A DNA stretch of 64,000 bases from the IMG/VR virus record IMGVR_UViG_3300035086_000100, positions 1 through 64,000 of that record. The stretch is one strand, 5' to 3'. A program made the translations under genes and the position numbers. The DNA comes from a virus. Of the stretch, positions 8,173 to 33,257 are shown piece by piece (within the stretch, counting starts at the first letter, position 1; each line of letters opens with the position of its first letter). Under the pieces are notes generated by a model. That model was not told the origin of the DNA, made no database searches, and saw nothing but the letters and a program-made list of their open reading frames with translations.

Positions 8173-8184
8173 CAGGAGGCAGTG

Positions 8185-8394: not shown

Positions 8395-8458
8395 AGGCTC
8401 CCGCCACGCCCGGGCAGCGCTGCTCCCAGGTCATCCGCTCGCACCTGGGGCACCTTCC

Positions 8459-8492
8459 CCCGGCCGACATGTGAGAGTTCGTGTCGGCCGGG
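8459..8492. terminator. GC-rich hairpin between convergent genes
   Basis: A perfect 10-bp inverted repeat (CCCGGCCGAC at 8459-8468 and its complement at 8483-8492) encloses a 14-base loop. It sits between the end of the plus cassette (8394) and the end of the minus-strand HNH gene (8562). It lacks a T-run, so termination efficiency is uncertain, but the position suits a bidirectional terminator. Confidence 0.55.
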
Positions 8493-8561
8493 CTCCCGGT
8501 GACGGTCAGGCTTCCCGGCACCGTGTTAGAGGTCCATGCCGTGGTCATCTTGGCCTCCTGG

Positions 8562-9200: not shown

Positions 9201-9356
9201 GTCGATGCCTCTTACCAGGTGTCGGTGACGCTCTGGTGCCTGCTACTTGGAGAGGTGCAGGCACTGGAGCCTAATTCGCACATTCTATCGGATCGATGAT
9301 CCTATGGGTCACTGAACACACTGTGCGGCCTATCCCGATGTCGAATCGGACAAACG

Positions 9357-9965: not shown

Positions 9966-10045
9966 GGTCGGGTCTCCTTAGCTGAGGCATGCGGAAAGCC
10001 GCCACGGCGGGGCGGGAATGGGTGCTAGCCGTTTAGGCTGCGACG

Positions 10046-10621: not shown

Positions 10622-10962
10622 ACCTCCCGCAGCCTGAACCCTGCCAGCCGGGCGGCCTCATGCGCCCGCCCGGCGGTCTCCGGGTCGCAGTCGGTACCCT
10701 CCGCCGTAATCACGACTGACTCGCCGCCCGGCTCGAGCGGAGGGACGGTCAGCGACCCGAAGTTCACCGGGGCGAGGCGCACCGTTCCGTCCGGGGACGG
10801 CTCCCGCGGCTCATCCGGCGCTGCGGGCTCAGGGAACCCGGTCGGGATCGGGTCGGGCTCGGGCTGATCCGCGGGAAGCACCCTTACCGACCCTGAGCCG
10901 CCCAGAGACGTGCCGGAAGGGCTGGTGACGGGCTTCCGCCCGGGTTCGTCAGGCGTCGTCAC
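10618..10962 (-). CDS. Hypothetical tail-region protein
   Basis: This 114-residue protein has a Pro/Glu-rich, probably disordered N-terminal half (PEPDPIPTGFPEPAAPDEP) and a short ordered C-terminus (LAPVNFGSLTVPPL, then ETAGRAHEAARLAGFRL). It lies between the major tail gene and two virion-like genes on the same strand. No function can be assigned. Confidence 0.65.
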   Translation of the reverse strand: MTTPDEPGRKPVTSPSGTSLGGSGSVRVLPADQPEPDPIPTGFPEPAAPDEPREPSPDGTVRLAPVNFGSLTVPPLEPGGESVVITAEGTDCDPETAGRAHEAARLAGFRLREV

Positions 10963-10971
10963 AGGAGCCTC

Positions 10972-11343
10972 CTAGGGCGTCGGCACCAACTGGTAGAGGG
11001 TCACCGAGTTGCCGGTGACAACGGAGAAGTCGATCCACATCAGGCCGGTGCCGTCCGGCTGGGTGAAGTCGGCGGCCGACCACGGGCCGAACAGGTAGTT
11101 CGTGGAGTTCGCGAGCGTCTTGGTGAGCGTCGCCACCGGGTACGCCTGGCCCTGGACCTGCCGGCCTATCCAGGTGCTCATGGTGCACGTCCCGGCCACC
11201 CCGATGTAGACGACGAGGAACACCTGGCCATTGTTGGTGAAGTTCACCCCGGTAAAGGTGGCCAGCGTCTGCGCGCCCGTCGTCGGGAGCGTCAGGCCTG
11301 CCGTGCCTGCCAGGTTGACTGGCGTCAGGGTCACCCGTGCCAT
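10972..11343 (-). CDS. Putative virion protein, beta-sandwich-like
   Basis: The 123-residue protein is rich in Thr, Val, Gly and Asn (ATFTGVNFTNNGQVFLVVYI) with no charged helices, a composition typical of virion beta-sandwich proteins. The ATG is chosen for the natural N-terminus MARVTLTPVNLAG. It is 42 bp downstream of the similar gene at 11386-12090 and could be a tail or head decoration component. Confidence 0.65.
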   Translation of the reverse strand: MARVTLTPVNLAGTAGLTLPTTGAQTLATFTGVNFTNNGQVFLVVYIGVAGTCTMSTWIGRQVQGQAYPVATLTKTLANSTNYLFGPWSAADFTQPDGTGLMWIDFSVVTGNSVTLYQLVPTP

Positions 11344-11385
11344 GTCGTACCGCCTTCCTCAGAGCCGCTGACCTGCGAAGACGGG

Positions 11386-12090
11386 CTATGAATTGTCCGG
11401 CACCCACTTCTGGAGGTCGGCCTGCACGGTGAGCGTGAACGCGGCCGACGCCCCGATGGCGAGCACCGCGATCCGGAACGTCGACCCGGGGAAGCCCTCG
11501 AACGGCACCGAGTACCGGTCGGTGGTCGCCGGGACGGAGGGAAGCAGCACCTGGCCGCCCGTGATCAGGCGGTTCAGGACGGTACCCGGCGCGGGGGAGA
11601 CGGCACTGGACCATGCCCACGTCGGCGCGGCCGAGTAGGTCATGGAGATAGCGCCGGCGGCGGGAACGATGTAGGTCCCGGCACCGGCCCCGACCGTGAC
11701 GCTGTTGACGACCACCGCGGTCATGGTGCCGCCCGTGATCACCACGGTCACCGGGTAGGTGTTCGGGTTCTGGACCGCGACCGTGGTGGCGGGGACGGAC
11801 GGGGTGGCGGGTGCCGCCGTGCCCAGCGCCGCCGCGACCGAGGCGAGCTGCTCCGCGGCGGGGTTCGGGTACCACGAGGTGGACAGGCCCTCGGCGGTGT
11901 CCTGGTGCTGGAACAGCAGGTACAGCGCCGTGGGGGCGGTGGTGATGGCGGCGAACTTGACCCGCAGCAGGCCCCGGACGAAGTCGGAGCCGCCCTGGGT
12001 GATCGTTCCGGGGGTGAGCACGCCGGGGGAGACCGCTCCGGTGCAGGCGAGGGCGGTCGCAAGGGTCAGCTGGTCAGTCTCGTAGCCCAA
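11386..12090 (-). CDS. Putative virion/tail protein, beta-rich
   Basis: The 234-residue protein is Thr/Ala/Val-rich with few charges. A pair of segments (PATTVAVQNPNTYPVTVVIT and TAVVVNSVTVGAGAGTYIVP) resembles the valine-proline beta patterns of receptor or decoration domains. It sits downstream of the tail terminator candidate. A virion role is inferred from composition and position only. Confidence 0.65.
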   Translation of the reverse strand: MGYETDQLTLATALACTGAVSPGVLTPGTITQGGSDFVRGLLRVKFAAITTAPTALYLLFQHQDTAEGLSTSWYPNPAAEQLASVAAALGTAAPATPSVPATTVAVQNPNTYPVTVVITGGTMTAVVVNSVTVGAGAGTYIVPAAGAISMTYSAAPTWAWSSAVSPAPGTVLNRLITGGQVLLPSVPATTDRYSVPFEGFPGSTFRIAVLAIGASAAFTLTVQADLQKWVPDNS

Positions 12091-12104
12091 AGTAGGACAT
12101 CTCC

Positions 12105-12518
12105 CTAGTTTCCGGCAATGCAGATGTAATTAGTTACAAACTCGTACCTGTCGCCGTCGTCAGGCCCTGAGGCGAGCGGTGACGGGGTGCCGCCGAGGCG
12201 GTGAACGTGGACGATGACGCGCCCGCTGATGACGGCAGGGAACTGCGCGCCGAGGATGAGGGCGTCGAGCGCGTAGGCGTCGGCCTCGGCGCCGGCCTGG
12301 TCGTTCTGGCCGCCCCGTACCCGCGCCTGGAACCCGCCGGCGTCGGCGGCGCCTTCCAGCAGGTAGCCCGGCCCTGGGGTCACGGTGATGACCACGAGCC
12401 GGTCAGGTGAGTCGGGGATGTAGGGGCCGGCCAGGACGGGGGAGCCGGTTTCCTGGGTGGCGTCCCATCCGAGGGTGCCGGTTATCCAGGCGATGACGGA
12501 CGTGGTCGGCAGCGGCAC
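12105..12518 (-). CDS. Minor capsid/tail terminator-like protein
   Basis: The 137-residue product (MPLPTTSVIAWITGTLGWDA) fits the size and position of tail terminator or 'minor capsid' proteins between connector and major tail genes. The segment SPDRLVVITVTPGPGYLLEG and the C-terminal GDRYEFVTNYICIAG follow the pattern of these families. The assignment rests on position and overall pattern. Confidence 0.6.
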   Translation of the reverse strand: MPLPTTSVIAWITGTLGWDATQETGSPVLAGPYIPDSPDRLVVITVTPGPGYLLEGAADAGGFQARVRGGQNDQAGAEADAYALDALILGAQFPAVISGRVIVHVHRLGGTPSPLASGPDDGDRYEFVTNYICIAGN

Positions 12519-15401: not shown

Positions 15402-16313
15402 TTAGATACCCGACAAAAGTACGAAAGCTAGGGGTTCGTCAAGCCCTATGGCGGATTGGCGCTGAATATCCGATCTGCTGGACTTGGTCTTTTCGTCTCG
15501 ATACAGGGGACTTGCCTGAAATTCCAGCTCATCCGCGACAAACCCGCATCTCTGCCGCATAAGCACCAAGGCGTTGCCCGAAGGGATCTGCCTTGACCGC
15601 AAGGTGTCGAGATCGAGGATTTTATTAGGAAGTACCCCCGTGTACTGGAGGTTTTCTGACGCTATGTCCCCGATGTACGGCGCCGCGAAGGAACTGCTCT
15701 GAATGAGGGTATTCTTCGTTCCTGTCCCGATAATCATCGTGTCGGCCTCGAAGCCCAGGTACGACGTGAAGCCGAGGCTGCTGGGCACGCTGGCGTTCTC
15801 GACCAGGAACACCGCATTGGCGATGTCTGCCCGGATCGTCGCGTTGGACGATGCCCACGGCGCGCCCACCGCGAGGGTCTGGATGCCCCCGTTGGCGACC
15901 ACGGCGCTGTAGAAAGCCTGCTCCCACGAGTACGTCATCGTGTTCTTCACCTGGCGGAGCTGCCTGGTCAGCGGGTCCATGATCATGCGGCGGCGCATCT
16001 GGTCGGAGACGCTGACCGCCATCGCGCGCTCGTGGGTGAACACCACGCGCGGAATCCCGACGCTGGTCGGCACGACCGGCACCTCGCCGAACTCGGCCCG
16101 GATCTCGGGCACGTCATCGGCGTACAGCGGCGTCGACTCCGAGTAGCGCACGGCGCCGCTGTTCGTCATCCCGCCCTTCCGCAGGATCACGTCCATGATG
16201 AACTCGTTCTGGGTCATTTCCAGGATGAGTTCGGGGATGATCAGCGGGTCCTTCAGCAGCGCGTCATAGGTGATGCGCGGGCCGTCCATGCTGGTGATCG
16301 AAGAAACTGGCAC
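15402..16313 (-). CDS. Major capsid protein
   Basis: The 303-residue protein has the features of HK97-fold actinophage capsids: helical N-arm (PLIIPELILEMTQNEF), the long spine-helix region (TRQLRQVKNTMTYSWEQAFY), a P-domain with ADTMIIGTGTKNTLI and a C-terminal ASPLYRDEKTK...RQSAIGLDEPLAFVL. It follows the protease-scaffold and decoration genes and precedes the connector, the normal order. About 400 copies per icosahedral head are expected from the family. Confidence 0.88.
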   Translation of the reverse strand: MPVSSITSMDGPRITYDALLKDPLIIPELILEMTQNEFIMDVILRKGGMTNSGAVRYSESTPLYADDVPEIRAEFGEVPVVPTSVGIPRVVFTHERAMAVSVSDQMRRRMIMDPLTRQLRQVKNTMTYSWEQAFYSAVVANGGIQTLAVGAPWASSNATIRADIANAVFLVENASVPSSLGFTSYLGFEADTMIIGTGTKNTLIQSSSFAAPYIGDIASENLQYTGVLPNKILDLDTLRSRQIPSGNALVLMRQRCGFVADELEFQASPLYRDEKTKSSRSDIQRQSAIGLDEPLAFVLLSGI

Positions 16314-16970: not shown

Positions 16971-18251
16971 TCAGAGCCCGGTCATCTGCCGGTAGCCGGA
17001 CTTGATGGCGGCACGGTCGGCAACCTGGGCCTCTTCGGCCGCTGCGGCTTCCTCGGCCCCGAAGTCGAGGGCGGTGCCGGTCTCGGCGGACAGGTCCAGG
17101 GCCTTGACGGTCCGGCCGTACTCAGTCAGTACCTTGCGGACGATCGCCCCGGCGTCGATGCTCGTGCCGTTGGCGAGTTCCACTACCCGGCCGGTGCCTT
17201 CGAGCAGGGGGCGGGCAAGGTCGGTGATGCGGGGCGGGATGCCGTGCAGCCGGGCGAACGCGTCGCGTTCCTTCTCGAACGTCGCCGTGTCCAGCGCCTT
17301 GCGGATCGTCGCCAGCTCGAGCGCGTTCTCGTCGGCGCGGGAGTTGGCCAGGTCGATCGCGGCCTGAGCCTCAGCGGACAGGGCAGCGCCCGCGGCAGTG
17401 AGTTCGCCGTCCGCCTTGGCGTCATCCTTGGCGGGCTCATCCTCGGTGCCGTCGTCCTCGCCGACCTCATCGAGCAGGGCCTGCAGCTCCTCGTCGGACA
17501 GTTCCGGCTCGGGGGTCAGCAGCGCGTCGAACTGGTCGTCGGGCAGGTCCAGCAGCTTCGCCAGCCGGGCCTCCTGTGCCTCTGTGAAAGCCATGGTCTT
17601 GTCCTCCGTAGTGGGAGCGGGCGGGGCTGCCGGATCGGCTGTGCGCGGTTCTGGGGGCTGCAGGGGGGCATCCGCGGGAGAGGCGCCAGCGGGCTTGGCG
17701 TACTCGGCACTCGTCAGGTCGAGGACATCGCCGCCGTCGCCGGAGAGATCCATGCCCTGCCACATCCCGGAAGCCAGTGCGGCCGTGACGGGCTCCCACT
17801 GCCGCATGCCGGTCAGGCGCGGGTCCAGGGTGCCCAGGACGTGCTTGATGGCGGCGGGAAAGAACTTGCCGTCCGCCCGCCCGTAGGCCTCGACGATGGA
17901 CGCGGAGATGCCCAGGTCGGGAAACTCGGTCAGGTAGTCGCCGGCGGCCTTCCCGGCTTCGACGATCACGTCGAGCCCGTCGTCGGTCAGCTCCAGGTCG
18001 CGGACCGTGCCGCGCCGCTGCTCCACCTTGTTGGTGTGCTTGTTGTCGTGGCTGGCGAACTGGAACGGCACCGCGTCGTAGGCCTTGTCGCGGAACGCCT
18101 GCACCAGCCGCGCCAGGTAGTCGCGCGTGAAGCTGATCTTCCGGCCCTCGTAGGTGATGTCACCTATCGGCAGGAGCTGCCTTCGCCACATGGTGGCGCC
18201 GACGCGCTGCGGCTTGCCGCTGGTGACCGGCGTCAGGAGAGTGGTGGTCAC
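16971..18251 (-). CDS. Capsid maturation protease-scaffold fusion
   Basis: The N-terminal ~170 residues show a head-protease-like pattern (ITYEGRKISFTRDYLARLVQ, VPFQFASHDNKHTNKVEQ with the His-Asp-Asn, and DLGISASIVEA), and the C-terminal half is an acidic helical scaffold (EELQALLDEVGEDDGTEDEP). The GTG at 18251 overlaps the previous stop (GTGA) and is preferred to 18284. A second in-frame ATG at 17594 follows GGAGG at 8-base spacing and begins MAFTEAQEARLAKLLDLPDD, exactly at the scaffold; it could give scaffold alone, as lambda Nu3 is made within gene C. Confidence 0.8.
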   Translation of the reverse strand: MTTTLLTPVTSGKPQRVGATMWRRQLLPIGDITYEGRKISFTRDYLARLVQAFRDKAYDAVPFQFASHDNKHTNKVEQRRGTVRDLELTDDGLDVIVEAGKAAGDYLTEFPDLGISASIVEAYGRADGKFFPAAIKHVLGTLDPRLTGMRQWEPVTAALASGMWQGMDLSGDGGDVLDLTSAEYAKPAGASPADAPLQPPEPRTADPAAPPAPTTEDKTMAFTEAQEARLAKLLDLPDDQFDALLTPEPELSDEELQALLDEVGEDDGTEDEPAKDDAKADGELTAAGAALSAEAQAAIDLANSRADENALELATIRKALDTATFEKERDAFARLHGIPPRITDLARPLLEGTGRVVELANGTSIDAGAIVRKVLTEYGRTVKALDLSAETGTALDFGAEEAAAAEEAQVADRAAIKSGYRQMTGL

Positions 18252-18499
18252 GGCAGCACCCCCCAGATCTGGACGGGAGCGCATCCGGCCGCGACAGATG
18301 ACTGGTACTGGTAGGGGGGCATGTCCGGGCAGGCGGTCGCGTTGACCACGTACGTGCCGAGGCCCTGATCTGCGGCACCGCCTGTCGGGTAGTGCCAGAC
18401 CCGTGCGGCGGGCAGCACTGCCCGGAGTTGCGCCACTTCGCTGCGGAGCGCCCGGATCTCGTCGCGGAGGCTTGCCAGTTCGGACTGCTCGGCGGTCAC
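18248..18499 (-). CDS. Hypothetical coiled-coil protein
   Basis: The GTG at 18499 has GGGAG upstream and gives an 83-residue protein with an N-terminal heptad coiled coil (LASLRDEIRALRSEVAQLRA) and a small C-terminal region with two Cys (NATACPDMPP, AGCAPVQIWG). The longer frame upstream has shadow-like composition. It overlaps the protease-scaffold start by 4 bp. Confidence 0.65.
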   Translation of the reverse strand: MTAEQSELASLRDEIRALRSEVAQLRAVLPAARVWHYPTGGAADQGLGTYVVNATACPDMPPYQYQSSVAAGCAPVQIWGVLP

Positions 18500-20350: not shown

Positions 20351-21238
20351 TCACTGGTGCGCCGCCTGGGCGTCCAGCCGGTTCGCTGCCTTAGACAGCA
20401 TCCGGGCGTCATTCTTGAGCAGCTTGATCTGCCCGTTCAGCTTCGCGACCCTCGACTGCTGAGGCTTTCCTGACTTCATGGCCGCCGCGATCCTCGCCGC
20501 AACCCTGGCCTGCTTGGACTTGCCGCCCGCCTTGCGGGTCGCTGCCGCTTTCTTCGCCGCCGCCGACTTGACGCCCGACACGGCCTTGCGCGGCTGGGGG
20601 ATGCCTGCTATCAGCGCGTCCCGCTGCCGTGTCAGTGCCGCTACCCGCAGCATGATCTGGTGCGCGAGATGCCGGTCTTGCGAGGCTTGGTAGCGGAGCT
20701 GCTGTGCCCGCGTCATCGGACCCGCCAGCCCCGGTGCGGCAGGGATAGCGGCGGACTTCGGCGTGTTCCGTGCCCGTGCCGCCGCTGCCGGCTGGCCGCC
20801 CTTGTTGCCGAACTTCCCGCCCGCTGCCCGGGGGTGAAGGGCCTCGGTGTACATGCCGGCCAGGTCGACCGAGGGGCCGTCGTTCGCGTGGCTGTGCGCG
20901 GCAGCCTTCAGGCTCTCCCACTCGGCAATTGCCTCAGCCGCTGCCGCCCGTACTTCCGGATGCACTTTCCCGCCGCCGCGAGCCCACCGCTTCACGACGC
21001 CGATCGCCATCTGGATCGCCGACGACTCGTCCTTGGCCCGGCCGGTTCGCAGCAGCGCGTGCGCGATGTTCTGCACGTACGCCGGAAGTTGCGCGCCTTT
21101 CATCCGGAACAGGCCCGGCCCTGAGGGGGACCCGAACGGGTGATGGACCGTGGACACGACCGGCGTCTCGGCGGACAGGGCGATTTCGCTGCCTGCGAAC
21201 GGGTGCCACGCTGCGGCTACCGGGTCCTCGACCGTCAC
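20351..21238 (-). CDS. Phage minor head-region protein with 'HPR-GKF' motif
   Basis: The GTG at 21238 follows GGGGAG. The 295-residue product contains LPAYVQNIAHALLRTGRAKD and VVKRWARGGGKVHPEVRAAA, a conserved segment of actinophage minor head proteins, then EALHPRAAGGKFGNKGGQ, a motif shared with the zeta-kinase protein at 23516-24790, and a Lys/Ala-rich C-terminus that would bind nucleic acid. A role in head assembly or as an internal virion protein is inferred. Confidence 0.65.
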   Translation of the reverse strand: MTVEDPVAAAWHPFAGSEIALSAETPVVSTVHHPFGSPSGPGLFRMKGAQLPAYVQNIAHALLRTGRAKDESSAIQMAIGVVKRWARGGGKVHPEVRAAAAEAIAEWESLKAAAHSHANDGPSVDLAGMYTEALHPRAAGGKFGNKGGQPAAAARARNTPKSAAIPAAPGLAGPMTRAQQLRYQASQDRHLAHQIMLRVAALTRQRDALIAGIPQPRKAVSGVKSAAAKKAAATRKAGGKSKQARVAARIAAAMKSGKPQQSRVAKLNGQIKLLKNDARMLSKAANRLDAQAAHQ

Positions 21239-21327: not shown

Positions 21328-21549
21328 ATGAAGGCCGAGACCTACCGGGGCGTGAAGCTCAAGGTCAAGAAAGGCCGCGACTGGGGCTATCTGGCTCACT
21401 TCGTCAACGGCGTGCCGTGGGGCGAATGGATCGGCACCGACGAGGCGAAGGCTCTCGCGGGGATGCACGGCTACGTGGATGACGCAATAGCGCGCCCGGA
21501 TGCATATGCGGACTACTGGCAGCCAGGATTCAAGAAGGAGCAGTCATGA
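21328..21549 (+). CDS. Hypothetical protein, first gene of the DUF3560/MTase cassette
   Basis: GGGAGGAAATCC precedes the ATG, a strong ribosome binding site. The 73-residue product (MKAETYRGVKLKVKKGRDWG) is aromatic-rich (HFVNGVPWGEWIG, YADYWQPGFKKEQ). It is coupled to the next gene by ATGA overlap, so it may be an accessory subunit of it. Confidence 0.75.
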   Translation: MKAETYRGVKLKVKKGRDWGYLAHFVNGVPWGEWIGTDEAKALAGMHGYVDDAIARPDAYADYWQPGFKKEQS

Positions 21550-23132
21550 TCACCATCACCCACACTCACCAGGACGGAACGCTGGTCGACGGCACCGACA
21601 AGGGCGACGGTTCGGCCGCCATCCTGAAAGCGTGCCGGTTCCGCTGGTTCCCGTCGATCAAGGTCTGGGGCATCGCCCAGTCACGGGACCATCTGGCCAA
21701 GCGCTGGCAGATCGAGGATGCCGCGAAGCAGTTGCGCGCGGCCGGCTTCGAGGTGACCGTCGAGATCGACGACACCCCGCGCGAGGTTGTGCAGGTCAAG
21801 GCCGACCGCGCCGAGCGACTGGATGACCGGTACGACAGGCTGACCGCGAAAGCTGAGCGCGGCTCGGCTGAGGCCGAGCGCCGGTTCGCGACCGCCGACC
21901 ATTACTCCGAGCGGTTCGCCGGCGGCCAGCCGATCCTGGTAGGCCACCACTCCGAGCGCGGCGCGAGGGTCGCGCAGAAGCGCATCGACCAGAACATGCG
22001 GGCCGGCTGCGAGGCCGTCCGCGACGCCGAGCGCGCCGCGCAGGCCGCCTCGGTGGTCGGTGCCGCCGACGCCTACCGCGAGCGCCCCGCCGTGATCATC
22101 CGGCGGATCGCCAAGACCGAGGCCGACCTGCGGAAAGTCGGGCACGACATCAACGGCACGAGGCCCGCAAACGACTGGCGCGGCGCTTACGCCCCCGAGT
22201 TGGGGCACAAGCCGGCCAGCGGCGCGTGGCTGGAGCAGTGCGAGGCCCGCAAGACGTTCCTTGAGCACCAGCTAGCCGCCGACAAGGCAGCACTGGCCGA
22301 GCACGAGGCAAACGGCTACGTCATCCACTCGCGGGAGACGATCCACAAGGGCGACTTCATCGCCTACTGGGGCAGCAGGCGCAGCGAGGTAGTGCGCGTG
22401 AACGCCAAGACGGTCAGCCTGAAGACTCAGTACACGTGGACTGACAAGGTCTCGTACGAGGAGATCAAGGCGATCGAGTGCCCGCACGAGGGCACCGTCA
22501 CCAAGGCCGCGCCGGCCAAGCCGCTGCCGAAGCGCGGGAAGCCAGCCGTGACCGTGCCTGAGGTGCCCGCCGAGCGCCCGGAGCCGCTGCTCATCGACGC
22601 GCGGCGCGAGTTCTTCCCCACCCCTGACGCCGTTGTCCAGCGCATGATCCGGATGGCGGGCTACCCGGGCGAAGGCATGACGGTACTCGAACCGTCCGCC
22701 GGGCTCGGTGCCATCGCGCGGCCTGTCGCCGCACTGGGCGCATCGGTTGACTGCATCGAGATCGACCGTCAGCTAGCCGACCGGATGCGCACGGCAGGAT
22801 TCGAGGTCCGGTGCGGTGACTTCCTCGAAACCGAGCCCGTGCCCGCATACGACCGGGTGATCATGAACCCGCCGTTCGCGCACGGCGTCGACGCGAAGCA
22901 CGTCCTGCATGCGCTGAAGTTCCTGCGCCCCGGCGGCCTGCTCGTCTCGGTCATGGCCGGCAGCATCCCGAGCCGGTCAGGCAAGGACGCGGACCGCATC
23001 AGGGAACTGGCCGGCACCGAAGGCGGCCTGATCGAGTTGCTGCCCGGCGGGTCGTTCACCGAATCCGGCACCGCCGTGTCCGCCGTGATCGTCGTCATCC
23101 CGGTCCCGGCCGTGCAGGCGAGCGCGGCATGA
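21546..23132 (+). CDS. DUF3560-DNA adenine methyltransferase fusion
   Basis: The 528-residue protein has an N-terminal DUF3560 region (residues ~1-200) with the hallmark HYSERFAGGQPILVGHHSER, a long helical linker, and a C-terminal class I methyltransferase (from ~345). Motif I is VLEPSAGLGAIARPVA and the catalytic motif IV is NPPF (VIMNPPFAHGVDA), typical of N6-adenine enzymes; the segment FFPTPDAVVQRMIRMAG starts the domain. DUF3560 proteins are frequent on actinomycete plasmids. Protection of its own DNA from restriction is the likely role (inference). Confidence 0.85.
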   Translation: MITITHTHQDGTLVDGTDKGDGSAAILKACRFRWFPSIKVWGIAQSRDHLAKRWQIEDAAKQLRAAGFEVTVEIDDTPREVVQVKADRAERLDDRYDRLTAKAERGSAEAERRFATADHYSERFAGGQPILVGHHSERGARVAQKRIDQNMRAGCEAVRDAERAAQAASVVGAADAYRERPAVIIRRIAKTEADLRKVGHDINGTRPANDWRGAYAPELGHKPASGAWLEQCEARKTFLEHQLAADKAALAEHEANGYVIHSRETIHKGDFIAYWGSRRSEVVRVNAKTVSLKTQYTWTDKVSYEEIKAIECPHEGTVTKAAPAKPLPKRGKPAVTVPEVPAERPEPLLIDARREFFPTPDAVVQRMIRMAGYPGEGMTVLEPSAGLGAIARPVAALGASVDCIEIDRQLADRMRTAGFEVRCGDFLETEPVPAYDRVIMNPPFAHGVDAKHVLHALKFLRPGGLLVSVMAGSIPSRSGKDADRIRELAGTEGGLIELLPGGSFTESGTAVSAVIVVIPVPAVQASAA

Positions 23133-23341
23133 CCGGGTGGAAGCGCGCCCTGTGCGGCCTGACCGAGATAGCGCAGATGGCGGGAGTGTCCAAGCAGCGA
23201 GCGGGGGTGATCATGGATCACCCGGACGCGCCCGAGCCGCTCGACGAACTGGCGCAGGGACGCGTCTGGTCCTGTGCTGCCGTGGAGAAGTTCCTCAGCG
23301 AGCCGAGGCGGAGGGTCACGCGGGAGGAACGTCAGGCATGA
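23129..23341 (+). CDS. Small helix-turn-helix DNA-binding protein
   Basis: The ATG overlaps the methyltransferase stop (ATGA). The 70-residue product contains a MerR/AlpA-like HTH (GLTEIAQMAGVSKQRAGVIM) followed by the wing-like GRVWSCAAVEKFL. It could regulate the cassette, perhaps through the CTGTCA operator upstream, which is untested. Its 3' end overlaps the convergent gene by 26 bp. Confidence 0.75.
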   Translation: MTGWKRALCGLTEIAQMAGVSKQRAGVIMDHPDAPEPLDELAQGRVWSCAAVEKFLSEPRRRVTREERQA

Positions 23342-23516
23342 GCGCGTGATCGAACGGGACCTCTGTCACCTGGCCGTCCGGGATCGCCCTGATCTCGGCG
23401 GCCATCTTCACGTACAGCCGCACGTTCCTGGCCGTTCTCGGCACGCCGGCGTCACGGAAATCCCTGCCCGCCGCCGCCGCCATCAGCATCTTGTGCGCAG
23501 CCTCGCCGCGTTCCAT
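23316..23516 (-). CDS. Hypothetical protein coupled to the zeta-kinase gene
   Basis: The ATG at 23516 overlaps the upstream stop (ATGA); the longer frame to 23648 is a shadow. The 66-residue protein begins MERGEAAHKMLMAAAAGRDF and is helical with a C-terminal acidic-hydrophobic end (TEVPFDHALMPDVPPA). Because it is coupled to a zeta-type kinase gene it could be an antidote or a small virion protein; neither is shown. Confidence 0.65.
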   Translation of the reverse strand: MERGEAAHKMLMAAAAGRDFRDAGVPRTARNVRLYVKMAAEIRAIPDGQVTEVPFDHALMPDVPPA

Positions 23517-24790
23517 CACGTGAACCTCTCGTGTTCCTTCGCCAGGAACCTTGCCCACGCCTTCTTGTCCTGCACCGACCAGTCGCCGCCCGCCGGCTTG
23601 GAGCCGATGAGGTGGATGGACCGGTCGGGCCGGTCGTTGTTGTCCCACAGTTCCGCCGAGTCGAACAGCCCGTTCTTCACTGCCTGCCGGAACGCCCCCG
23701 TCACCGACGCGTGGGTTTCGCGCAGGTAGGTAAGCGGCACGACGCGGCCGGTTTTCGCCGCCCGCTGGTCGGCCCTGCCCGCCGCCGTGGCCGTGTCGGC
23801 CGTCACGTACTGGCCGTGCACCCGGTAGCCGGCCGCCTTCGCCTCCGCTGCCTTCCCCGCGAGCTTCGGGTAACTGGAATCCCCGGTCCCGTCGAGAGTA
23901 AAGTCCCGTTTCCCGGCGACCGCGCGGGACATGATCTTCTTCGCCAGCGCCGACGATTCCTCGTGCACGAAAGCGGCAGCGCCCTTATCGCCTGCCGCGA
24001 CGCCCGTCTGGTATTCGGGAAGCTGCGCCTTGATCGCGTCCGGGTCGATGACCACGCCGCTTACCGGGCTCTGCTTCAGCATCGCCGACTTGCCCGACGC
24101 CGGGCCGCCGCCCATGAACGTCGCCACCGGGTCATGCGACGGCGAGGTCCCCGCCAGCGCCCTGCCGATGATTTTCTCGTGCAGCGCGGCACGCTCCGGG
24201 GTGAGCTGGCCGTCGCGGGTGTGCTGCTCAAGGCTGTCCGCGAACGTCCCGCCGCCCTTGGCGAACTTGCCGTGGAAGCCGCGCGGGTGCAGCGCCTCAT
24301 CCCAGGCCAGTCCGATCGCTGTCCCTTCGCCGGCCAGGTTCTTCGCCGCCGCCTGCCTCTTGTGCACCGCATCCCACGGACCCGACGCCGTTTTCGCTGT
24401 CCCCACCCATGCCGTGACCGGCCGTCCCAGGGCGATGCTCGCGAGTGACCGGCTGTGGCCATCTACGAGGCGCAGGAGGTTCGTGCCCGGACGCCTCACC
24501 GCGACTACCGGCTTCCGTGCCCCCGAGCGGAGCGACGAGACCATGGAGGCGATCTTCCGCTTGTCCGCTGCCGCGAGTTTCCAGTTCGGGTCGGAGCGGT
24601 CAAGCTGGCGGGTGGGCACCTGAACCGGGCCTTTCGTCCATGCCAGGTCATCGACCCAGGCCAGGGCACCGGGCGGGTAATCGCGGGCCAGTTGCAGCTT
24701 GACCTCTTCGGCCGTCGTCAGCTTCCGTGGCGTAGCGAGGGGCGCATGCGGATCCGAAACGGGTGATGCCGACGCTTGCGGAGCGGACAT
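23516..24790 (-). CDS. ParB-like nuclease / zeta toxin-like kinase fusion
   Basis: The 424-residue protein has a ParB/sulfiredoxin-like fold near residues 60-135 (VRRPGTNLLRLVDGHSRSLA), a phage-type linker EALHPRGFHGKFAKGGG, and a zeta-toxin P-loop kinase domain from ~215: Walker A FMGGGPASGKSAML, VVIDPDAIKAQLPEY, and the catalytic-loop region RDFTLDGTGDSSYPK. Zeta kinases phosphorylate UDP-N-acetyl sugars and block cell-wall synthesis. The HPR-GKF linker, shared with the gene at 20351, and the position in the head cluster suggest a virion-associated protein. No epsilon antitoxin homologue is evident next to it. Confidence 0.85.
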   Translation of the reverse strand: MSAPQASASPVSDPHAPLATPRKLTTAEEVKLQLARDYPPGALAWVDDLAWTKGPVQVPTRQLDRSDPNWKLAAADKRKIASMVSSLRSGARKPVVAVRRPGTNLLRLVDGHSRSLASIALGRPVTAWVGTAKTASGPWDAVHKRQAAAKNLAGEGTAIGLAWDEALHPRGFHGKFAKGGGTFADSLEQHTRDGQLTPERAALHEKIIGRALAGTSPSHDPVATFMGGGPASGKSAMLKQSPVSGVVIDPDAIKAQLPEYQTGVAAGDKGAAAFVHEESSALAKKIMSRAVAGKRDFTLDGTGDSSYPKLAGKAAEAKAAGYRVHGQYVTADTATAAGRADQRAAKTGRVVPLTYLRETHASVTGAFRQAVKNGLFDSAELWDNNDRPDRSIHLIGSKPAGGDWSVQDKKAWARFLAKEHERFT

Positions 24791-25368
24791 TGCCTGCTCA
24801 CCGGCCGTTCCCCGTTACCGTGGTTGACCGGCAAGAACGCACCGAGGGGAGAGCGGAGTTGGCCGACTACGCCGAGTCCATCTGGGTTGAGTCAACCAGG
24901 GGACCGGACGATGAGCCCGCGTGCCTGATCCGGTGGGGGATGCTGGAATATTACGCGCCGGTAGCCGACGTGCGGGAAACGGCGGTCGACCTGTTCACGT
25001 GCGCGGCGTACTCGGAACTGATGATGACACTGCTCGTGAAACTGGATCTCCCGCCGCACGTGGTGTCCCAGATGACCACGGAACTGCTCGATGACCGGGA
25101 GAAACGGTACTTCGGGGCACTGACCACGATCACGCTGATACCCGCAGGATCATCGAAGCGCAAGGAGCCCCTGGTGCTGCTGAAACGCGGGTCGATGAAA
25201 GGCTCGGTGAGCCCGGATGAGGCACGGGCAATGGCGCTGCGGTGGCTCGAAGCAGCGGAGGCCACCGAATCGGATCAGCTGGTGAGCGAGGCCCTGCGGG
25301 CGACCGGGTTTGATGACGCGGCGCAGGAGAAGGTTTTCGGCTACCTGCGGGAACTGCGGAAAGCGTAG
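24766..25368 (+). CDS. Hypothetical protein, divergent insert
   Basis: The 200-residue product starts at the ATG at 24766 and overlaps the 5' end of the divergent zeta-kinase gene. It has a beta-rich first half (SIWVESTRGPDDEPACLIRW) and helical second half (SPDEARAMALRWLEAAEATE). No family recognised. It is followed by a small plus-strand gene at 25375. Confidence 0.65.
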   Translation: MPTLAERTLPAHRPFPVTVVDRQERTEGRAELADYAESIWVESTRGPDDEPACLIRWGMLEYYAPVADVRETAVDLFTCAAYSELMMTLLVKLDLPPHVVSQMTTELLDDREKRYFGALTTITLIPAGSSKRKEPLVLLKRGSMKGSVSPDEARAMALRWLEAAEATESDQLVSEALRATGFDDAAQEKVFGYLRELRKA

Positions 25369-25374
25369 GGCGGC

Positions 25375-25593
25375 ATGGCGGACGACAGCACTCACTACCG
25401 GGTGTCACTGGGCTGCGGCTGCAGCTTCAATGAGCACCGGCCGGCGCGGGTAGTCGCGCCCGTCGACGGCGAGATGCGCGCTTGCGGCCATCCCGAGCAC
25501 TATCCGGCGCAGTTCCCTGCGACATACCGGCGGCTCACCGAGGCGGAGTTCTGGCAGCCTAGGGAAGTACCGGAGCGCCCCGAAACGGCCTGA
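25375..25593 (+). CDS. Small Cys/His-containing protein
   Basis: The 72-residue product has VSLGCGCSFNEHRPARVV and RACGHPEHYPAQFP, spaced Cys and His residues compatible with one zinc site. It follows the previous plus-strand gene by 6 bp and overlaps the convergent minor head gene by 35 bp. Confidence 0.65.
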   Translation: MADDSTHYRVSLGCGCSFNEHRPARVVAPVDGEMRACGHPEHYPAQFPATYRRLTEAEFWQPREVPERPETA

Positions 25594-26230
25594 CCGGAAT
25601 GCAGCGGCAGGAATTGTGAACTGTCCCCGGATACGACGGGTGGCCTTCGATGACCGGAGGATGGTCGGCCCGGAAGTTCCGCCCGCTGGCTCTTGAGCAC
25701 CCCGGCGAGCATCTCCGGTCCTTGACGGCCAGCCAACCGAGCAGATTCCCGTGTTCCGCTGCCATGCCGTCCACCCGGGACGCTGCCGTGACTCTCTGCT
25801 GGCAGGCCGTGACATGCATGGCGAGGTAACGGCGTTCTGTGCCGATCGCGTCCAGGACAGCGGCTCTCACCGGCTCGCGGCGGGACCGGGCATCAGTCAC
25901 GGCGGCCTGTACCCGCCTGCACGCGGCCAGGAAGAACGCAGCGCGGCGATGCAGGTTGGTCCTGACCGCCCACCGGGTAGCAGGTCCCGTGCCTTCCAGC
26001 ACGTCCTGAGGCCACGACATGACCAATTCCGCGCACGCCGCCAGGGCAAGGTAGCCGACCCCGGCCGCAGAGAGAAGCCTGCGGAGAGCGGACATGACCG
26101 CTACGGCGGTGAGCGCTGTCCCGAGCGCGGCGATGACCGCGGCGATCAGGACGGCATCGGACGGTGCCGCTGGGGGGTTCTGCTGCGGTTGCGCCGAAGG
26201 GTTAGCCGGTGCTAGCGCCGTGGCGGCCAC
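25559..26230 (-). CDS. MuF-type minor head protein
   Basis: The 223-residue protein has an N-terminal hydrophobic helix (AVLIAAVIAALGTALTAVAV), helical middle, and a C-terminal signature of SPP1 gp7/MuF-like proteins: WLAVKDRRCSPGCSRASGRN followed by HPSYPGTVHNSCRCIPVRP, where Cys/His residues bind metal. Such proteins are associated with the portal and enter with DNA. The start GTG at 26230 gives the hydrophobic N-terminus, shorter starts are possible. Confidence 0.78.
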   Translation of the reverse strand: MAATALAPANPSAQPQQNPPAAPSDAVLIAAVIAALGTALTAVAVMSALRRLLSAAGVGYLALAACAELVMSWPQDVLEGTGPATRWAVRTNLHRRAAFFLAACRRVQAAVTDARSRREPVRAAVLDAIGTERRYLAMHVTACQQRVTAASRVDGMAAEHGNLLGWLAVKDRRCSPGCSRASGRNFRADHPPVIEGHPSYPGTVHNSCRCIPVRPFRGAPVLP

Positions 26231-26262: not shown

Positions 26263-27438
26263 ATGGACCACCTGATACGTTCCGAGGGCGCTCCGGTCGA
26301 CCGGCTCACGCGCCTGTGCGACGCCATGATCGAGGCACTGAAAGCCTGCCCGGAGTACCGGGAAGGCGACAAGGTCATCATCATGGCCGACGACGGCGAG
26401 CGGGGCGGCAACATCCTGCACGGCTACGCCAAAGCCGAGGACGCGCTGACTGACGTGCTGCTCCACACGAAAGCGATCTTCGAGGCGCACGGCCGGAAAC
26501 TCACGCTCAGGCCGACCCGGGCCAGCTTACGGCTTGGTCCCGTACGCGGCCGGGACATGCCCGTTGCCGCCCGGCACGCCGTCCCGCAGGATCTGGGCGA
26601 ACTGGTCCCGCAGCGCCTTCACCGACTCCCTCACCGCCCGCGACACGTCAGCGTCGCTCACGGTGTTGCCCGCGAACTTCGACGTTGCGCCGAGGTCAGG
26701 CTGTCCCAGCAGCGGGGACCGGCACGCAATCAGCAGTATCCACACGATCACGTCCTGCCCGGTCTGGGCCTGAACCGCTCCCATCGACACCGAGTAGCCG
26801 AACTCCTCAGCGGGGGCGCATTCCCGGATCGCCTCAGACGCTGCTGTCCTGATGCGCTCCGCGATGTCGTACGGCTCTGCCACCCGCTACCCCTTGGTTC
26901 CGAAGTTCGGCACGCTGAACGGCTGCGCCATGTCCTCGGGAAGCGGGGCCGCGTTCGACTCCTTCAGCGCCTTCTGCGCGATCTTGTGCGCCGCATCGAC
27001 CCCGCCCGCCAGCGAGCCGAGCTGGGCGGCTGCCTGCGGCGGCATTCCCGGTGCCGCTGCCGGGGCCTGTGCCGCCCGGTCCTTCGCCGCCTGCTGGATG
27101 ATCTGCTCCACCGCGGAAACGTCGAGGTTCAGGAACGTGGCCAATCTAGTGGTGATGATGTCCAGGATCCCTGCGGGCACCTGAAGTGCGGGGGCTACGG
27201 ACATTGCCTGGAACAGGCCCACGAGTGCGGTGTCGCTCTCGTCGGTGAGCGCGCCGAATTTGAACGTGGGATAGGCGGCGTCGGGGCCGAAATTCAATGT
27301 CACCAGAGGAGCGAGTACGTCGTGCGTGATGGCGGCTTCCATCTCGGCGGTGACGGCCTGGCGGGACTTGAGGAAGAACGCGGACTGGTCCTGGGACAGG
27401 GCGAGGGAGCCGCGGCCGAGGCTAGCCAGGGACGCTAG
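26263..27438 (+). CDS. Hypothetical protein; coding-like first ~88 codons, then antisense read-through
   Basis: From the ATG at 26263 to about 26525 the frame looks natural (MDHLIRSEGAPVDRLTRLCD, DKVIIMADDGERGGNILHGY, DALTDVLLHTKAIFEAHG). After 26527 it continues without a stop, antisense to two minus-strand head genes, with His/Arg-rich shadow composition, until 27438. The most likely situation is a single-gene insert that lost its stop codon or is truncated; only the first part deserves trust. Confidence 0.45.
   Translation: MDHLIRSEGAPVDRLTRLCDAMIEALKACPEYREGDKVIIMADDGERGGNILHGYAKAEDALTDVLLHTKAIFEAHGRKLTLRPTRASLRLGPVRGRDMPVAARHAVPQDLGELVPQRLHRLPHRPRHVSVAHGVARELRRCAEVRLSQQRGPARNQQYPHDHVLPGLGLNRSHRHRVAELLSGGAFPDRLRRCCPDALRDVVRLCHPLPLGSEVRHAERLRHVLGKRGRVRLLQRLLRDLVRRIDPARQRAELGGCLRRHSRCRCRGLCRPVLRRLLDDLLHRGNVEVQERGQSSGDDVQDPCGHLKCGGYGHCLEQAHECGVALVGERAEFERGIGGVGAEIQCHQRSEYVVRDGGFHLGGDGLAGLEEERGLVLGQGEGAAAEASQGR
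26527..26883 (-). CDS. Hypothetical protein downstream of the portal
   Basis: The 118-residue protein (MAEPYDIAERIRTAASEAIR) starts 3 bp after the portal stop, so it is coupled to portal translation. It has an N-terminal helix, a hydrophobic segment (VIVWILLIACRSPLLG) and a C-terminal helix (RAVRESVKALRDQFAQIL). Portal-adjacent genes of this size often encode minor head components. Confidence 0.65.
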   Translation of the reverse strand: MAEPYDIAERIRTAASEAIRECAPAEEFGYSVSMGAVQAQTGQDVIVWILLIACRSPLLGQPDLGATSKFAGNTVSDADVSRAVRESVKALRDQFAQILRDGVPGGNGHVPAAYGTKP

Positions 27439-28407
27439 GCCCGTGAAGCCCGCGAGGACTGAGGAGACCTGCCATGTTTCGAGGAAGGACAGGGCCTCGC
27501 TGAACTGCCCGGCACCCTTGCCCGCCGACTCCAAGATCTCGAACTGCTTAGCACCCTGGGGCGGGCGCTCGAATCCGACCACGCCCGATGCGCGCATGGA
27601 CGCGATGTCGTCCGCGTGCGCGTTGGCCTCTCTCGCCGACTGGCCGTAGACCAGGACTTTCGGTAGGCTCTGCTGTTCAATGTACTGATACCAGAGGAAA
27701 ATGAGCTTTAGCTTGGTTTGGTAGCACCAGTAACAAATGTCCAGTTCCGATGTGCCGGTGAGCGGCTGGCGGTGCTTCCCGTTGACGTAGACAAACGAGC
27801 GGATAGCGGGAATATCGACGTAACCGGGCGTAGATCCCTGCGCCCGCGTCCGGGATTCGCCGCCGACGAGCCACTGCCGCTGCCTGAACCCGTCGAACGC
27901 GCCGGTCCGGGCGTCCCGCCTGAGTTCGCAGGTCGACACCGGCCGCCACGCCAGTTTCTCGTAAATGATCTTGCCGTCCGAGTCGCGCTGAGCGAAAACC
28001 TTCTCGTGGAAGCTCTGGCGGTACGTCTGCGCGCTCGTGACCTGGCCGATCACGTCCTGCAGCGGCGTCTTCATCCCGCCGGCGGTGTGCGGCTCCATCA
28101 GCACGGAGCGGCAGAATTCAGCCTCGCCCTTGTCGCCCTTGGTCTTCTCGATCGCGCGGCTTGCCTGGCGGATCGGCAGGGTCAGGACGGCTTCGAGGGC
28201 AGCGGCCTGGCCGTCGCGGGTGAGCATGACCCCGACATCTCGGGCATCCCACGTGCCGTAGTCGAATACCTCGCCTTTGCCGTAAAAGGCATACATACGG
28301 TCAGAGCTATCGAAACTGGTTCCGAGTTCCCCGCGCATGAGCTGGCTGCGGGTAGACGGCTTCAGGTCCGGGAACGCGACGATCTTCGCGTTCTGGGAAC
28401 CGGCCAC
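26887..28407 (-). CDS. Portal protein (DUF935/Mu gp29-like)
   Basis: The 506-residue protein has the portal pattern of this group: N-terminal MRGELGTSFDSSDRMYAFY, VLTLPIRQASRAIEKTKGDK, crown and stem segments (DICYWCYQTKLKLIFLWYQY, SFLETWQVSSVLAGFTGL) and a Pro/Ala-rich C-terminus. It forms the dodecameric DNA channel at one capsid vertex. It lies downstream of the terminase but separated from it by a 2-kb block of small inserted genes. Confidence 0.87.
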   Translation of the reverse strand: MAGSQNAKIVAFPDLKPSTRSQLMRGELGTSFDSSDRMYAFYGKGEVFDYGTWDARDVGVMLTRDGQAAALEAVLTLPIRQASRAIEKTKGDKGEAEFCRSVLMEPHTAGGMKTPLQDVIGQVTSAQTYRQSFHEKVFAQRDSDGKIIYEKLAWRPVSTCELRRDARTGAFDGFRQRQWLVGGESRTRAQGSTPGYVDIPAIRSFVYVNGKHRQPLTGTSELDICYWCYQTKLKLIFLWYQYIEQQSLPKVLVYGQSAREANAHADDIASMRASGVVGFERPPQGAKQFEILESAGKGAGQFSEALSFLETWQVSSVLAGFTGLASLASLGRGSLALSQDQSAFFLKSRQAVTAEMEAAITHDVLAPLVTLNFGPDAAYPTFKFGALTDESDTALVGLFQAMSVAPALQVPAGILDIITTRLATFLNLDVSAVEQIIQQAAKDRAAQAPAAAPGMPPQAAAQLGSLAGGVDAAHKIAQKALKESNAAPLPEDMAQPFSVPNFGTKG

Positions 28408-30422: not shown

Positions 30423-33257
30423 CTAGCGCCACGAGTGCACGTTCGGCCTTGACGGCCTTCCGTCGTCATCCTGGGGAGCGAACGAGTCCACGCCCCACCC
30501 GTTGTCCCGCTGGCCGTAATCGGTTCCCTGCTGCTGCTGAGTTGCCCGCCTGTGACGCGGGTCGGAGGGGCGGGACAGTTCGTCCAGCTCGGCCTGCAGG
30601 GCGTAGCGGCGGGCACCGGCAGCACGGGGGGTGCCGGAGAGGTCGAAGTCGTGATCGAGGAACGGCGTTATCGCCCAGACCAGGCTATCGAGCCTGTCCG
30701 GCGATCTTTCGCCCGCAGCGCCAGTAAACGTGACGCATTGATCCTCTAGTTCCACGTGCGGGCCGTTGACGTGCCGCACGATGTCCCGCTCGTACAGTGC
30801 CGCTACCGGCTCGGCGCGGGTCCGCTTCGCCTGCGATGCGTGCACCACCTGATACGGAACCGACACGCCCAGGTCGCGCATGACCTGCCGCAACGTCGCT
30901 TCAAGGTAGGCGCCGCCGTGGTTCTTCTCCAGGATGACCCGGCCGTCCCAGCGTTCGGCCACCCGGACGACGCGCTTCAGGAACGGGACCGCGCCGATCC
31001 GGCCGCCCCACGACTCAGGGACGTACAGCCGCCGGTCCCCGCCGATCCCCGCGACGGTGTAGGCGCACTCGTCGGAATCCTCGGTGCCGTCAGAGGGGTC
31101 AGCGCCCACCGTGACCTGATGAAGCCGCCCGTCAGCGCCGCCGGGGACCTCCGGGACCTGGATCGACTCCAGCAGATCCCTTGACCAGAGAGCGTTCTCG
31201 ACGTCGTCGAGTAGTTCGCCCTCAAGCTCCTGGCGTTCCAGCCGCGTGCCCGTGGCTCTCGCCACGACTGATCGGTAGAACGTCTCCGACAGGTTCGCGA
31301 GGTTGTCGGCCGTCCTGAGCCTGCGGACCACCACGCCCGGTTCGTCGCGCAGCAAGCGCCGGATCAGCTTCGCCGCAGGCCGGGAGATCTTCGGGGTTCC
31401 GTCCGCGATGATCCGCGAGATTCCCTTGCGGACCGCGTAGGCGATCGACTCATCCCACGCCGTCGCCCACTTCAGCCACAGGCCGATCTCACTGCACCAG
31501 CACGCTGTCAGGTTCTTGCCCTGCACCCGCAGCGCGCCGTCGTTCGCCGAGTCGACGTAGATGACGTGACCAGACCGCAAGCCGATCTCGCCATAGGACC
31601 GGTGAGCGTAGGCCACGGTCCGGCTCGTGCCGTTCTTGACCTCGCCCGCACTGGTCCCCAGCGCTGCGAGAAACCCGCTCTCACCCTCGACGCAGACTGT
31701 CCATGCGTCCCGGTAGGTCGGGGCCACGATTGCCCAGTCGGCGGGTTCCGGCGTGTCCTGGATGAGCTGGGCGAGGCCCTGAGCGGAACTCCGGGTGTTG
31801 TGAGTCGGAACCATCGACTCGCCAGCGAGGTACATGTGATGCGGAGAGTCGACCGTCAGGCAGCGCATGGCCACGGGGTCGATCCGCTCAGCGCTAACGA
31901 TCATGCGGTGGTAGTGGCGGAACGCCTGCGCAGTGGGCATCTTGCAGCGGGCAAGTTTGCGGGACAGCCTGAATACGGGAATCGTCGGCCGCCAGGTGAC
32001 GCGCCACTTCGGCCCGCAGTCGCGCCCGTACAGCGTTGCCCGCCCCTCGGCGCAGACGGGCTTCTGGCCCAGCGACCGCGCCAGTTCGACCACGGCGTCA
32101 GCAAGGGGCTTGCAGGTGCTGGTGAACTCGACAGCGCAGCGTCGGGCGTCGGCACTGCCGTCTGTGTCCATCAGACCTTGCAGCAGCGCCAGCCGCTGAC
32201 TAGCGGACGCCCGGAGATACTCGGACGGAACGTGTTTGCTGCCGATCACGCCCAACTTGCGCAGCCGTCCGGTAAGGCCGGCGGGGTCGCGGGCATACGC
32301 CTGGCCGCCGATGAGGTAGCCCGGACACCGGTCGCCGTTCGGGCGCAACGGCTTGACGGTCTCGCCGCAAGCGCGGATGTGATCCAGGATCTCGGGGTCG
32401 GCCGAGGTGAGCGTGGCGTTGACCGATGATCCGTCGCCGAGCCAGCAGCCCAGGACGTAGGGATGCACGGGAAGGCCGGCTTCGGGCAGGTCAAGCGCAC
32501 CGCACACCGGAACCGAGTGGTTCGTGTCGCCTCGCGCGCCGAACGTGAGCGTGTCGGCAATCTGCTGCGTGGTGCGGATGCGCGGGCCGGGTGAGTCCGG
32601 GAACACTAGCGGCTCGGTCTTGCGCTCGACATAGGCGCCTGCGGTCAGGTGCCTGATCAGGCCGGTCCGGGATAGCCCGGTCTGCCGTATGACCTGATCG
32701 ACCGTTGCACCGCCTGCGCGGAGCGCCAGTGCGGGCTCTACCTGCTGGCGGGTCAGGTAGTTGTTGCCGCCGGGCAGTGGCCGCCGCCTTCGCCACGCCG
32801 GCCAGTCGTCGGGCAGGCGGGATGAGTCGTCATAGGGGGAGCGGAGAAACTCCTTGCGCTCGGCATGCGTCCACGTCACCCACTGGTGATCCGAGCACGC
32901 GTCAATGAACGTGCCGTCCGAGAACCGCAGCCGGTAGGCCACCTTCGGGATGTCATCGAACGTCGCCGTGACCCGGCAGATCCGCCCTGCTTCGTCGAAG
33001 ACTTCGTCGCCTGCGTTGATCTCGCCTAGTTTCGCCCAGCCGCGAGGCGTGGGAATGGGGGTAGCCACATCAAGTAGCTTACCGGCCCCTCTGCCGCCCT
33101 GATAATAAACGACGCGCCAGTCGCCCTCGGGCAGGAGCTGATCGGGCCGGGCGGTTCTCAGCCACTCCTTCTGAGGGTCCGCATGCACTCGCTTCCAGGC
33201 CCGCAGTTCAGCGAGTAGCCGCAGCTTCTCCGGAGGCGCCTGATGGATCACTGGCAC
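30423..33257 (-). CDS. terL: Terminase large subunit interrupted by an intein in Walker A
   Basis: The 944-residue precursor gives a ~517-residue terminase after removal of residues 61-487. The joined sequence GGRGAGK + TRSSAQG restores the P-loop. C-terminal to the intein come the ATPase segment (DWAIVAPTYRDAWTVCVEGE), the RNase H-like nuclease (VTVGADPSDGTEDSDECAYT) and the C-terminal ERSPDRLDSLVWAITPFLDH. It packages DNA into procapsids through the portal. The start overlaps the small-terminase-like gene by 50 bp. Packaging ATPase should be inactive before splicing. Confidence 0.93.
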   Translation of the reverse strand: MPVIHQAPPEKLRLLAELRAWKRVHADPQKEWLRTARPDQLLPEGDWRVVYYQGGRGAGKLLDVATPIPTPRGWAKLGEINAGDEVFDEAGRICRVTATFDDIPKVAYRLRFSDGTFIDACSDHQWVTWTHAERKEFLRSPYDDSSRLPDDWPAWRRRRPLPGGNNYLTRQQVEPALALRAGGATVDQVIRQTGLSRTGLIRHLTAGAYVERKTEPLVFPDSPGPRIRTTQQIADTLTFGARGDTNHSVPVCGALDLPEAGLPVHPYVLGCWLGDGSSVNATLTSADPEILDHIRACGETVKPLRPNGDRCPGYLIGGQAYARDPAGLTGRLRKLGVIGSKHVPSEYLRASASQRLALLQGLMDTDGSADARRCAVEFTSTCKPLADAVVELARSLGQKPVCAEGRATLYGRDCGPKWRVTWRPTIPVFRLSRKLARCKMPTAQAFRHYHRMIVSAERIDPVAMRCLTVDSPHHMYLAGESMVPTHNTRSSAQGLAQLIQDTPEPADWAIVAPTYRDAWTVCVEGESGFLAALGTSAGEVKNGTSRTVAYAHRSYGEIGLRSGHVIYVDSANDGALRVQGKNLTACWCSEIGLWLKWATAWDESIAYAVRKGISRIIADGTPKISRPAAKLIRRLLRDEPGVVVRRLRTADNLANLSETFYRSVVARATGTRLERQELEGELLDDVENALWSRDLLESIQVPEVPGGADGRLHQVTVGADPSDGTEDSDECAYTVAGIGGDRRLYVPESWGGRIGAVPFLKRVVRVAERWDGRVILEKNHGGAYLEATLRQVMRDLGVSVPYQVVHASQAKRTRAEPVAALYERDIVRHVNGPHVELEDQCVTFTGAAGERSPDRLDSLVWAITPFLDHDFDLSGTPRAAGARRYALQAELDELSRPSDPRHRRATQQQQGTDYGQRDNGWGVDSFAPQDDDGRPSRPNVHSWR
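31797..33077 (-). other. Class 3 intein with LAGLIDADG endonuclease (427 aa) in terL
   Basis: The intein begins with Leu (LLDVATPIPTPRGW), not Cys or Ser, and ends THN before Thr+1. It has the class 3 triplet: Trp126 in block B (SDHQW), Cys466 in block F (RCLTVDSPHHMYLAG) and Thr488 at +1. Two LAGLIDADG-like motifs are visible (YVLGCWLGDGSS; LLQGLMDTDGSAD), plus an HTH-like stretch (ATVDQVIRQTGLSRTGLIRH). Class 3 inteins are known from mycobacteriophage terminases such as Bethlehem gp51. Boundaries follow from exact repair of the Walker A motif. Confidence 0.92.

Follow-up and report, generated by a model that had tools for sequence, protein, structure and literature searches.

Zeta-family kinases carried on phage head proteins have, to our knowledge, been listed and never tested. 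The principle of such a fusion has been known since 2017, when "polyvalent" MuF-zeta proteins were described, in which a zeta-like kinase encoded among virion genes is fused to a structural domain (Iyer et al.; PMC5512222); the passages of that work on these proteins place ParB-fold domains in the same polyvalent class, propose injection and weakening of the cell wall, and make no mention of a small partner gene. In MuF polymorphic toxins, a toxin domain sits on a head protein and is followed by a small ORF that was proposed as an immunity gene (Jamet et al., 2017; PMC5576092); the word zeta is absent from that paper.

The locus that we analyzed shares features with both, and with the epsilon-zeta/PezAT modules. 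Like the polyvalent proteins in those passages of PMC5512222, its 424-aa product combines unrelated domains within a head gene cluster (just two of them, the lower limit for "several"); unlike the MuF-zeta fusions described there, the kinase is carried by a head-cluster protein of predicted ParB/sulfiredoxin (Srx) fold, and not by MuF. As in MuF polymorphic toxins, a small ORF (66 aa, with a 1-nt overlap) lies directly downstream, whereas the 424-aa protein has no MuF match (MuF being a separate gene), and the related small protein of cyanophage P-SS2 is found in the virion. The kinase belongs to the same domain family as those of epsilon-zeta and PezAT, being matched by the solved zeta toxin (PDB 1gvn, E = 1.3e-4); unlike these modules, neither epsilon nor PezA accompanies the kinase, the partner is downstream and unrelated to them, and an aspartate stands at the position of zeta E116. 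The 66-aa gene appears to found a new, previously undescribed protein family: we found no account of the family, or of its connection to P-SS2, in the open-access literature.

The kinase gene and its place in the head cluster

The window (the whole stretch of DNA analyzed, 64,000 nucleotides) comes from a 99-kb virus record, and the phage has a high GC content (69%). The features discussed here, all on the minus strand, are:

15402..16313, minus strand: major head protein (PHROG 1650, 3.5e-65)
20351..21238, minus strand: head-cluster protein with a second motif, HPRAAGGKF (no Pfam or PHROG family match)
23316..23516, minus strand: 66-aa partner protein (identity to relatives, family HMM, co-occurrence, homologue in P-SS2 virions)
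23516..24790, minus strand: 424-aa gene, predicted ParB/Srx fold plus zeta-family kinase (ORF, GC3, Pfam, PHROG)
23651..24145, minus strand: zeta-family kinase domain, residues 216-380 (Pfam, genome scan, phage relatives)
24086..24112, minus strand: Walker A motif GGGPASGKS, residues 227-235
24263..24289, minus strand: HPRGFHGKF linker, residues 168-176 (regular-expression matches)
24341..24733, minus strand: predicted ParB/sulfiredoxin-fold domain, about residues 20-150, with invariant DGH(S/T)R at residues 110-114 (AlphaFold and Foldseek; standalone homologues)
25559..26230, minus strand: MuF-like minor head protein, a separate gene (Phage_Mu_F, 25.2 bits, under the 29.6 cut-off)
26887..28407, minus strand: Mu-type portal protein (Portal_Mu, 1.6e-27)
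30423-33257, minus strand: terminase of the head cluster

The limits of the 424-aa ORF are exact (start ATG at 24790, end of the stop codon at 23516), and we take the ORF to be real because its GC3 is 0.85 (0.67 in the antisense ORF); its product matches PHROG 16619, a minor head protein (1.4e-44). A sequence-only reading of this DNA had placed the gene between MuF-like and protease genes. The position within the head cluster stands, but the MuF match falls under its cut-off, neither Pfam nor PHROG gives a significant match for the "protease" ORF downstream (16971-18284), and plus-strand genes (24763-25593 and 21328-23341) are interspersed on both sides, so that kinase and partner stand apart as a minus-strand unit of two genes. 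The part of the cluster from the kinase to the major head protein holds several uncharacterized genes.

A gene encoding DUF3560 and a methyltransferase (21546-23132, plus strand) also sits amid the head cluster, on the opposite strand; it has relatives in the related loci L005 and L074, and its methyltransferase part matches PADLOC mad2 (7e-22). The terminase large subunit has a two-part PHROG match and looks intein-split, and an NlpC/P60 protein (2252-6055, minus strand) carries a Hint/intein domain. Another stretch of the same virus record (L096) encodes a tyrosine integrase (2484-3476, 2.8e-24) and a GH25 lysozyme (7403-8794), so the phage may be temperate.

We found no Pfam match, to ParB or to any other domain, in the N-terminal region of the 424-aa protein. 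An AlphaFold model of residues 1-179, made from an alignment with nine relatives, has block pLDDT values of 88-97 across residues 21-140, and the 50 PDB matches listed by Foldseek for this model are of ParB/sulfiredoxin fold throughout (best E 1.1e-3, probability 1.00), including sulfiredoxin, ParB, Noc, KorB, SbnI, SerK, and similar proteins. The predicted structure thus places the domain in the ParB/sulfiredoxin superfamily by fold, and at fold level only, since the E-values are around 1e-3; with that qualification, the earlier description of a zeta toxin-like kinase and a ParB-like domain in one ORF is correct. Standalone ParB/Srx homologues (about 145 aa, 68-78% identical to the window domain) are found in six related phages, so the window fusion is a ParB/Srx protein to which a kinase was added via the HPRGFHGKF linker. 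As had been noticed from the sequence, the HPR...GKF segment is common to the kinase ORF and a neighboring head protein (23516-24790 and 20351-21238); these two head-cluster ORFs hold the only two occurrences in the virus record, against 0.055 expected from shuffled ORFs. Taken alone, the segment is a weak pointer to packaging. More distant relatives, head-cluster proteins of about 580 aa (L101 5986-7728 and L103 5968-7728), combine the ParB/Srx fold with an HExxH zincin-like region.

The kinase domain matches Pfam Zeta_toxin (PF06414) with an E-value of 2.5e-24 and scores 86.3 bits, where the cut-off is 22.3; a genome scan of the 99-kb record gave no second match to this family. Searching viral and genome contigs with the full-length 424-aa protein as a single query gave no relatives. 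The family became accessible through an alignment that included P-SS2 and Bacteroides phage sequences, which brought up 138 relatives in viral contigs (80 kept); a second kinase alignment brought up 32. There are 68 dereplicated phage kinase relatives in all, and conservation was counted on 41 dereplicated phage zeta sequences. In the zeta toxin, the Walker A lysine is K46, the catalytic aspartate is D67, a glutamate stands at position 116 (E116), and two arginines, R158 and R171, lie close to the C-terminal end of the core. The equivalents of K46 and D67 in the 1gvn alignment are K234 and D251: K234, like G233, is kept in 40 of the 41 sequences, and D251 in all 41, as are HEESS (276-280), D300, R343, and R349. 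The register of the two invariant arginines with R158 and R171 is by eye, the 1gvn alignment ending before both. D300 aligns with E116 and is an aspartate in every kinase compared; judged from the alignment, this is a group-specific, conservative change, and no bar to membership of the Pfam family. The catalytic positions are under strong constraint across the 41 sequences.

The carrier of the kinase varies: it is the portal protein in L004 and L007, MuF in L006, L009, L023, L031, L035, L075, and P-SS2, the S78_2 prohead protease in L018, and a DGHH ParB/Srx-like region (recognized by motif only) in L084, L109, L111, and L112. Two tandem zeta kinase domains occur in a single head protein in L023, L026, L030, L071, and L072.

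A small partner family behind the kinase

The 66-aa ORF overlaps the kinase stop codon by 1 nt (TGATG), and is translationally coupled to the kinase; its GC3 is 0.84. Searches of Pfam, PHROGs, NCBIfam, PADLOC, and the PDB gave no convincing match for its family, and antitoxin-like matches in Pfam and NCBIfam (QIL1, SARAH, and others; E 0.004-0.2) were judged to be chance. The protein is modeled as two helices and a C-terminal (V/I)PF(D/E) segment (pLDDT 83), and the model has no PDB fold match below E 3, with no solved antitoxin matched. We reject an epsilon-type antitoxin on this lack of sequence and fold matches, which agrees with the earlier remark that no epsilon gene lies beside the kinase.

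We built an HMM of the partner from 14 ORFs downstream of the kinase (for pattern scans, 12 divergent rows made too loose a partner alignment, and two tighter ones were used). Since this training set was picked by position, the independent weight lies with the 29 loci fetched after the HMM was built, and with the further members that the HMM found outside its training set. In those 29 loci (6298 ORFs), all same-strand matches with E<0.05 are directly behind a zeta ORF, and the only other match is a marginal one of 20 aa on the opposite strand in L116. The membership of the window partner in the family rests on its 59-63% identity to the partners of L004, L005, and L084, which lie directly behind the kinase: an HMM without the window clade finds L005 at 4e-6, L004 at 1.5e-4, and L084 at 5e-4, and the window sequence itself only at 0.7.

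Among 64 phage zeta loci (dereplicated at 90%, with enough downstream sequence), 33 have the partner downstream of the kinase within 5 kb, in 27 cases at a distance of at most 150 bp; about half of the zeta loci have no recognizable partner at E<0.01. The single convincing match elsewhere (L007 5033-5173) also follows the kinase directly, though on the other strand. The partner was found in none of nine zeta-less stretches, and the fetched stretches of L097, L098, L099, L102, and L104, which have a standalone ParB domain and are zeta-less, contain no partner. Distances between zeta sequences and between partner sequences correlate (Mantel r 0.74, p 0.0002, n=33). The partner is kept despite changes of carrier (for example, ParB in the window, portal in L004, and the DGHH ParB/Srx-like domain in L084); the kinase-partner cassette was found on carriers of the portal, MuF, prohead-protease, and ParB/Srx types, and the genes following the partner vary between loci. 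The partner can also be the N-terminal part of a larger protein, either an S78_2 prohead-protease ORF (L032 8684-9553, and L064) or a 1199-aa protein with a 2H phosphoesterase-type (2'-5' RNA ligase-type) domain (L060-L062; in L060 at 8663-12259). A contig from a Planctomycetota MAG (JAJRSE010000082.1; L105 8001-8855) also encodes kinase and partner, so the cassette is not confined to one host group.

Homologues in the virions of cyanophage P-SS2

Cyanophage P-SS2 (GQ334450) encodes MuF and zeta in one 1499-aa polyprotein, ORF030, which is 42% identical to the window protein over 58%, and also has an apparent ADP-ribosyltransferase (ART) region, read by eye; its zeta segment spans residues 427-597. 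ORF033 of this phage (22567-22767, 67 aa), located 430 bp downstream of ORF030, is a partner homologue: it shares 71% identity with the L029 partner, and matches the partner HMM at 1.6e-9 with L029 included and at 1e-4 with the original HMM. Mass spectrometry of purified P-SS2 virions gave, as average peptides, 96.5 for ORF030, 33 for the portal ORF025, and 2.5 for ORF033 (PMC2784084, Table 2); the counts are for whole ORFs, unmapped to domains, and the 2.5 peptides of ORF033 are thin support. The MuF-zeta-ART protein is a major virion protein. ORF030 and the portal have equal peptides per residue (0.064), which, the counts not being quantitative, fits the presence of the whole of ORF030 in the virion. 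The two proteins were annotated just as capsid and unknown structural proteins; the word zeta is absent from the text, and there is no sign in it that the authors recognized the kinase or the partner (PMC2784084).

P-SS2 is thus like the window in having a kinase and a partner, both of them in its virions in the case of P-SS2, and unlike it in that the kinase is part of a MuF/ART polyprotein with the partner 430 bp away, whereas the window has a ParB/Srx carrier and overlapping genes. An existing phage therefore has virion data that already show both the kinase polyprotein and the partner, and a dedicated partner family, accompanying the kinase in phages of very different hosts and with both found in real virions, offers two proteins to co-express and assay.

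Packaging, mechanism, and competing readings

The sequence-only reading had suggested that the kinase may be packaged in the virion, and the homologues support this: packaging and ejection are likely in view of the fusions to portal, MuF, and prohead protease and of the P-SS2 data, and with both homologues in P-SS2 virions, the window pair is probably a capsid cargo that is delivered to the host. That a coupled partner tracks the kinase from carrier to carrier points to a physical dependence, with the partner as an inhibitor or as a loading chaperone. A conserved zeta-linked partner fits the antidote role proposed for the 66-aa protein, but a homologue in virions is unlike a plain cell-resident antidote, and the partner is probably not left in the producing cell. 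We lean slightly toward a two-protein module, composed of a virion-packaged kinase effector and a dedicated packaged inhibitor or chaperone.

In this module, the zeta-family kinase would ride on a head-cluster protein (here the ParB/Srx-fold domain and linker; portal, MuF, or prohead protease in relatives), and would thereby become part of the capsid and leave it together with the DNA. The 66-aa protein, translated right after the kinase, would bind it, hold it inactive or export-competent during assembly, and probably be co-packaged with it. After injection the partner would be lost (diluted or degraded), and the freed kinase would act early in infection by phosphorylating a small molecule of the host, which by analogy would be a UDP-sugar. 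A cell-wall target is suggested by the likeness to zeta toxins, and the passages of PMC5512222 on MuF-zeta fusions propose the same for them. The sequence-only reading had suggested that an injected kinase could arrest cell-wall synthesis or kill competitors; our results give no preference to killing of competitors over a role in helping the phage infect the same host. We favor an inhibitor, or inhibitor-chaperone, that is packaged and then lost once injection has taken place, a last step that we infer. Tentatively, the two proteins could even be a virion-borne toxin-antitoxin-like pair, with the inhibitor in the capsid beside the kinase until its removal, following injection or in the course of head maturation; the kinase would then be on only in the newly infected cell and would be neutralized again at late-gene expression. 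Should the partner be an inhibitor that shares the capsid with its enzyme, capsids would carry armed but locked enzymes, and this would explain how such effectors spare the producing cell.

A partner that is no inhibitor, but a packaging or folding chaperone or a tether of the kinase domain, with a kinase that aids infection and is non-toxic to the producing cell, seems to us rather unlikely. The detection of ORF033 in virions would suit it, as would the partner-led proteins of L032/L064 and L060-L062, which indicate that the partner can be a procapsid part; a kinase followed by a small coupled ORF is, however, also the gene order of toxin and immunity gene in MuF toxins (PMC5576092). We consider it improbable that the pair is an intracellular toxin-antitoxin module that lies in the head cluster by chance, for example for prophage maintenance, because the kinase of relatives is directly joined to portal, MuF, or prohead protease, virions contain the P-SS2 protein, and the antitoxin, which is downstream and unlike epsilon, would be a late gene. 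Zeta toxins are classically toxins of toxin-antitoxin modules, which counts for this explanation, along with the tyrosine integrase in the record and the coupled two-gene arrangement.

The partner is always near head genes, and its homologue was called a structural protein in the P-SS2 paper, as would be expected of an ordinary head-assembly protein of the cluster, unrelated to the kinase; yet the partner tracks zeta over unrelated carriers while the genes after it vary by locus, and the five zeta-less relatives with a standalone ParB domain lack it, so that we disfavor a generic head protein on these controls and regard it as quite improbable. A degenerate kinase kept as a passenger with a purely structural role is very improbable, given that the Walker A, catalytic aspartate, and arginine positions are invariant or nearly so in 41 divergent sequences.

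A different repeated motif was observed in L005 (2918-8738 and 15232-15960), where (I/V/L)(D/E)L-GP-GY-H(G/N)W occurs six times in the head cluster, just ahead of ADP-ribosyltransferase, ParB-like, and zeta segments; it is possibly a packaging or processing tag, parallel to HPR-GKF.
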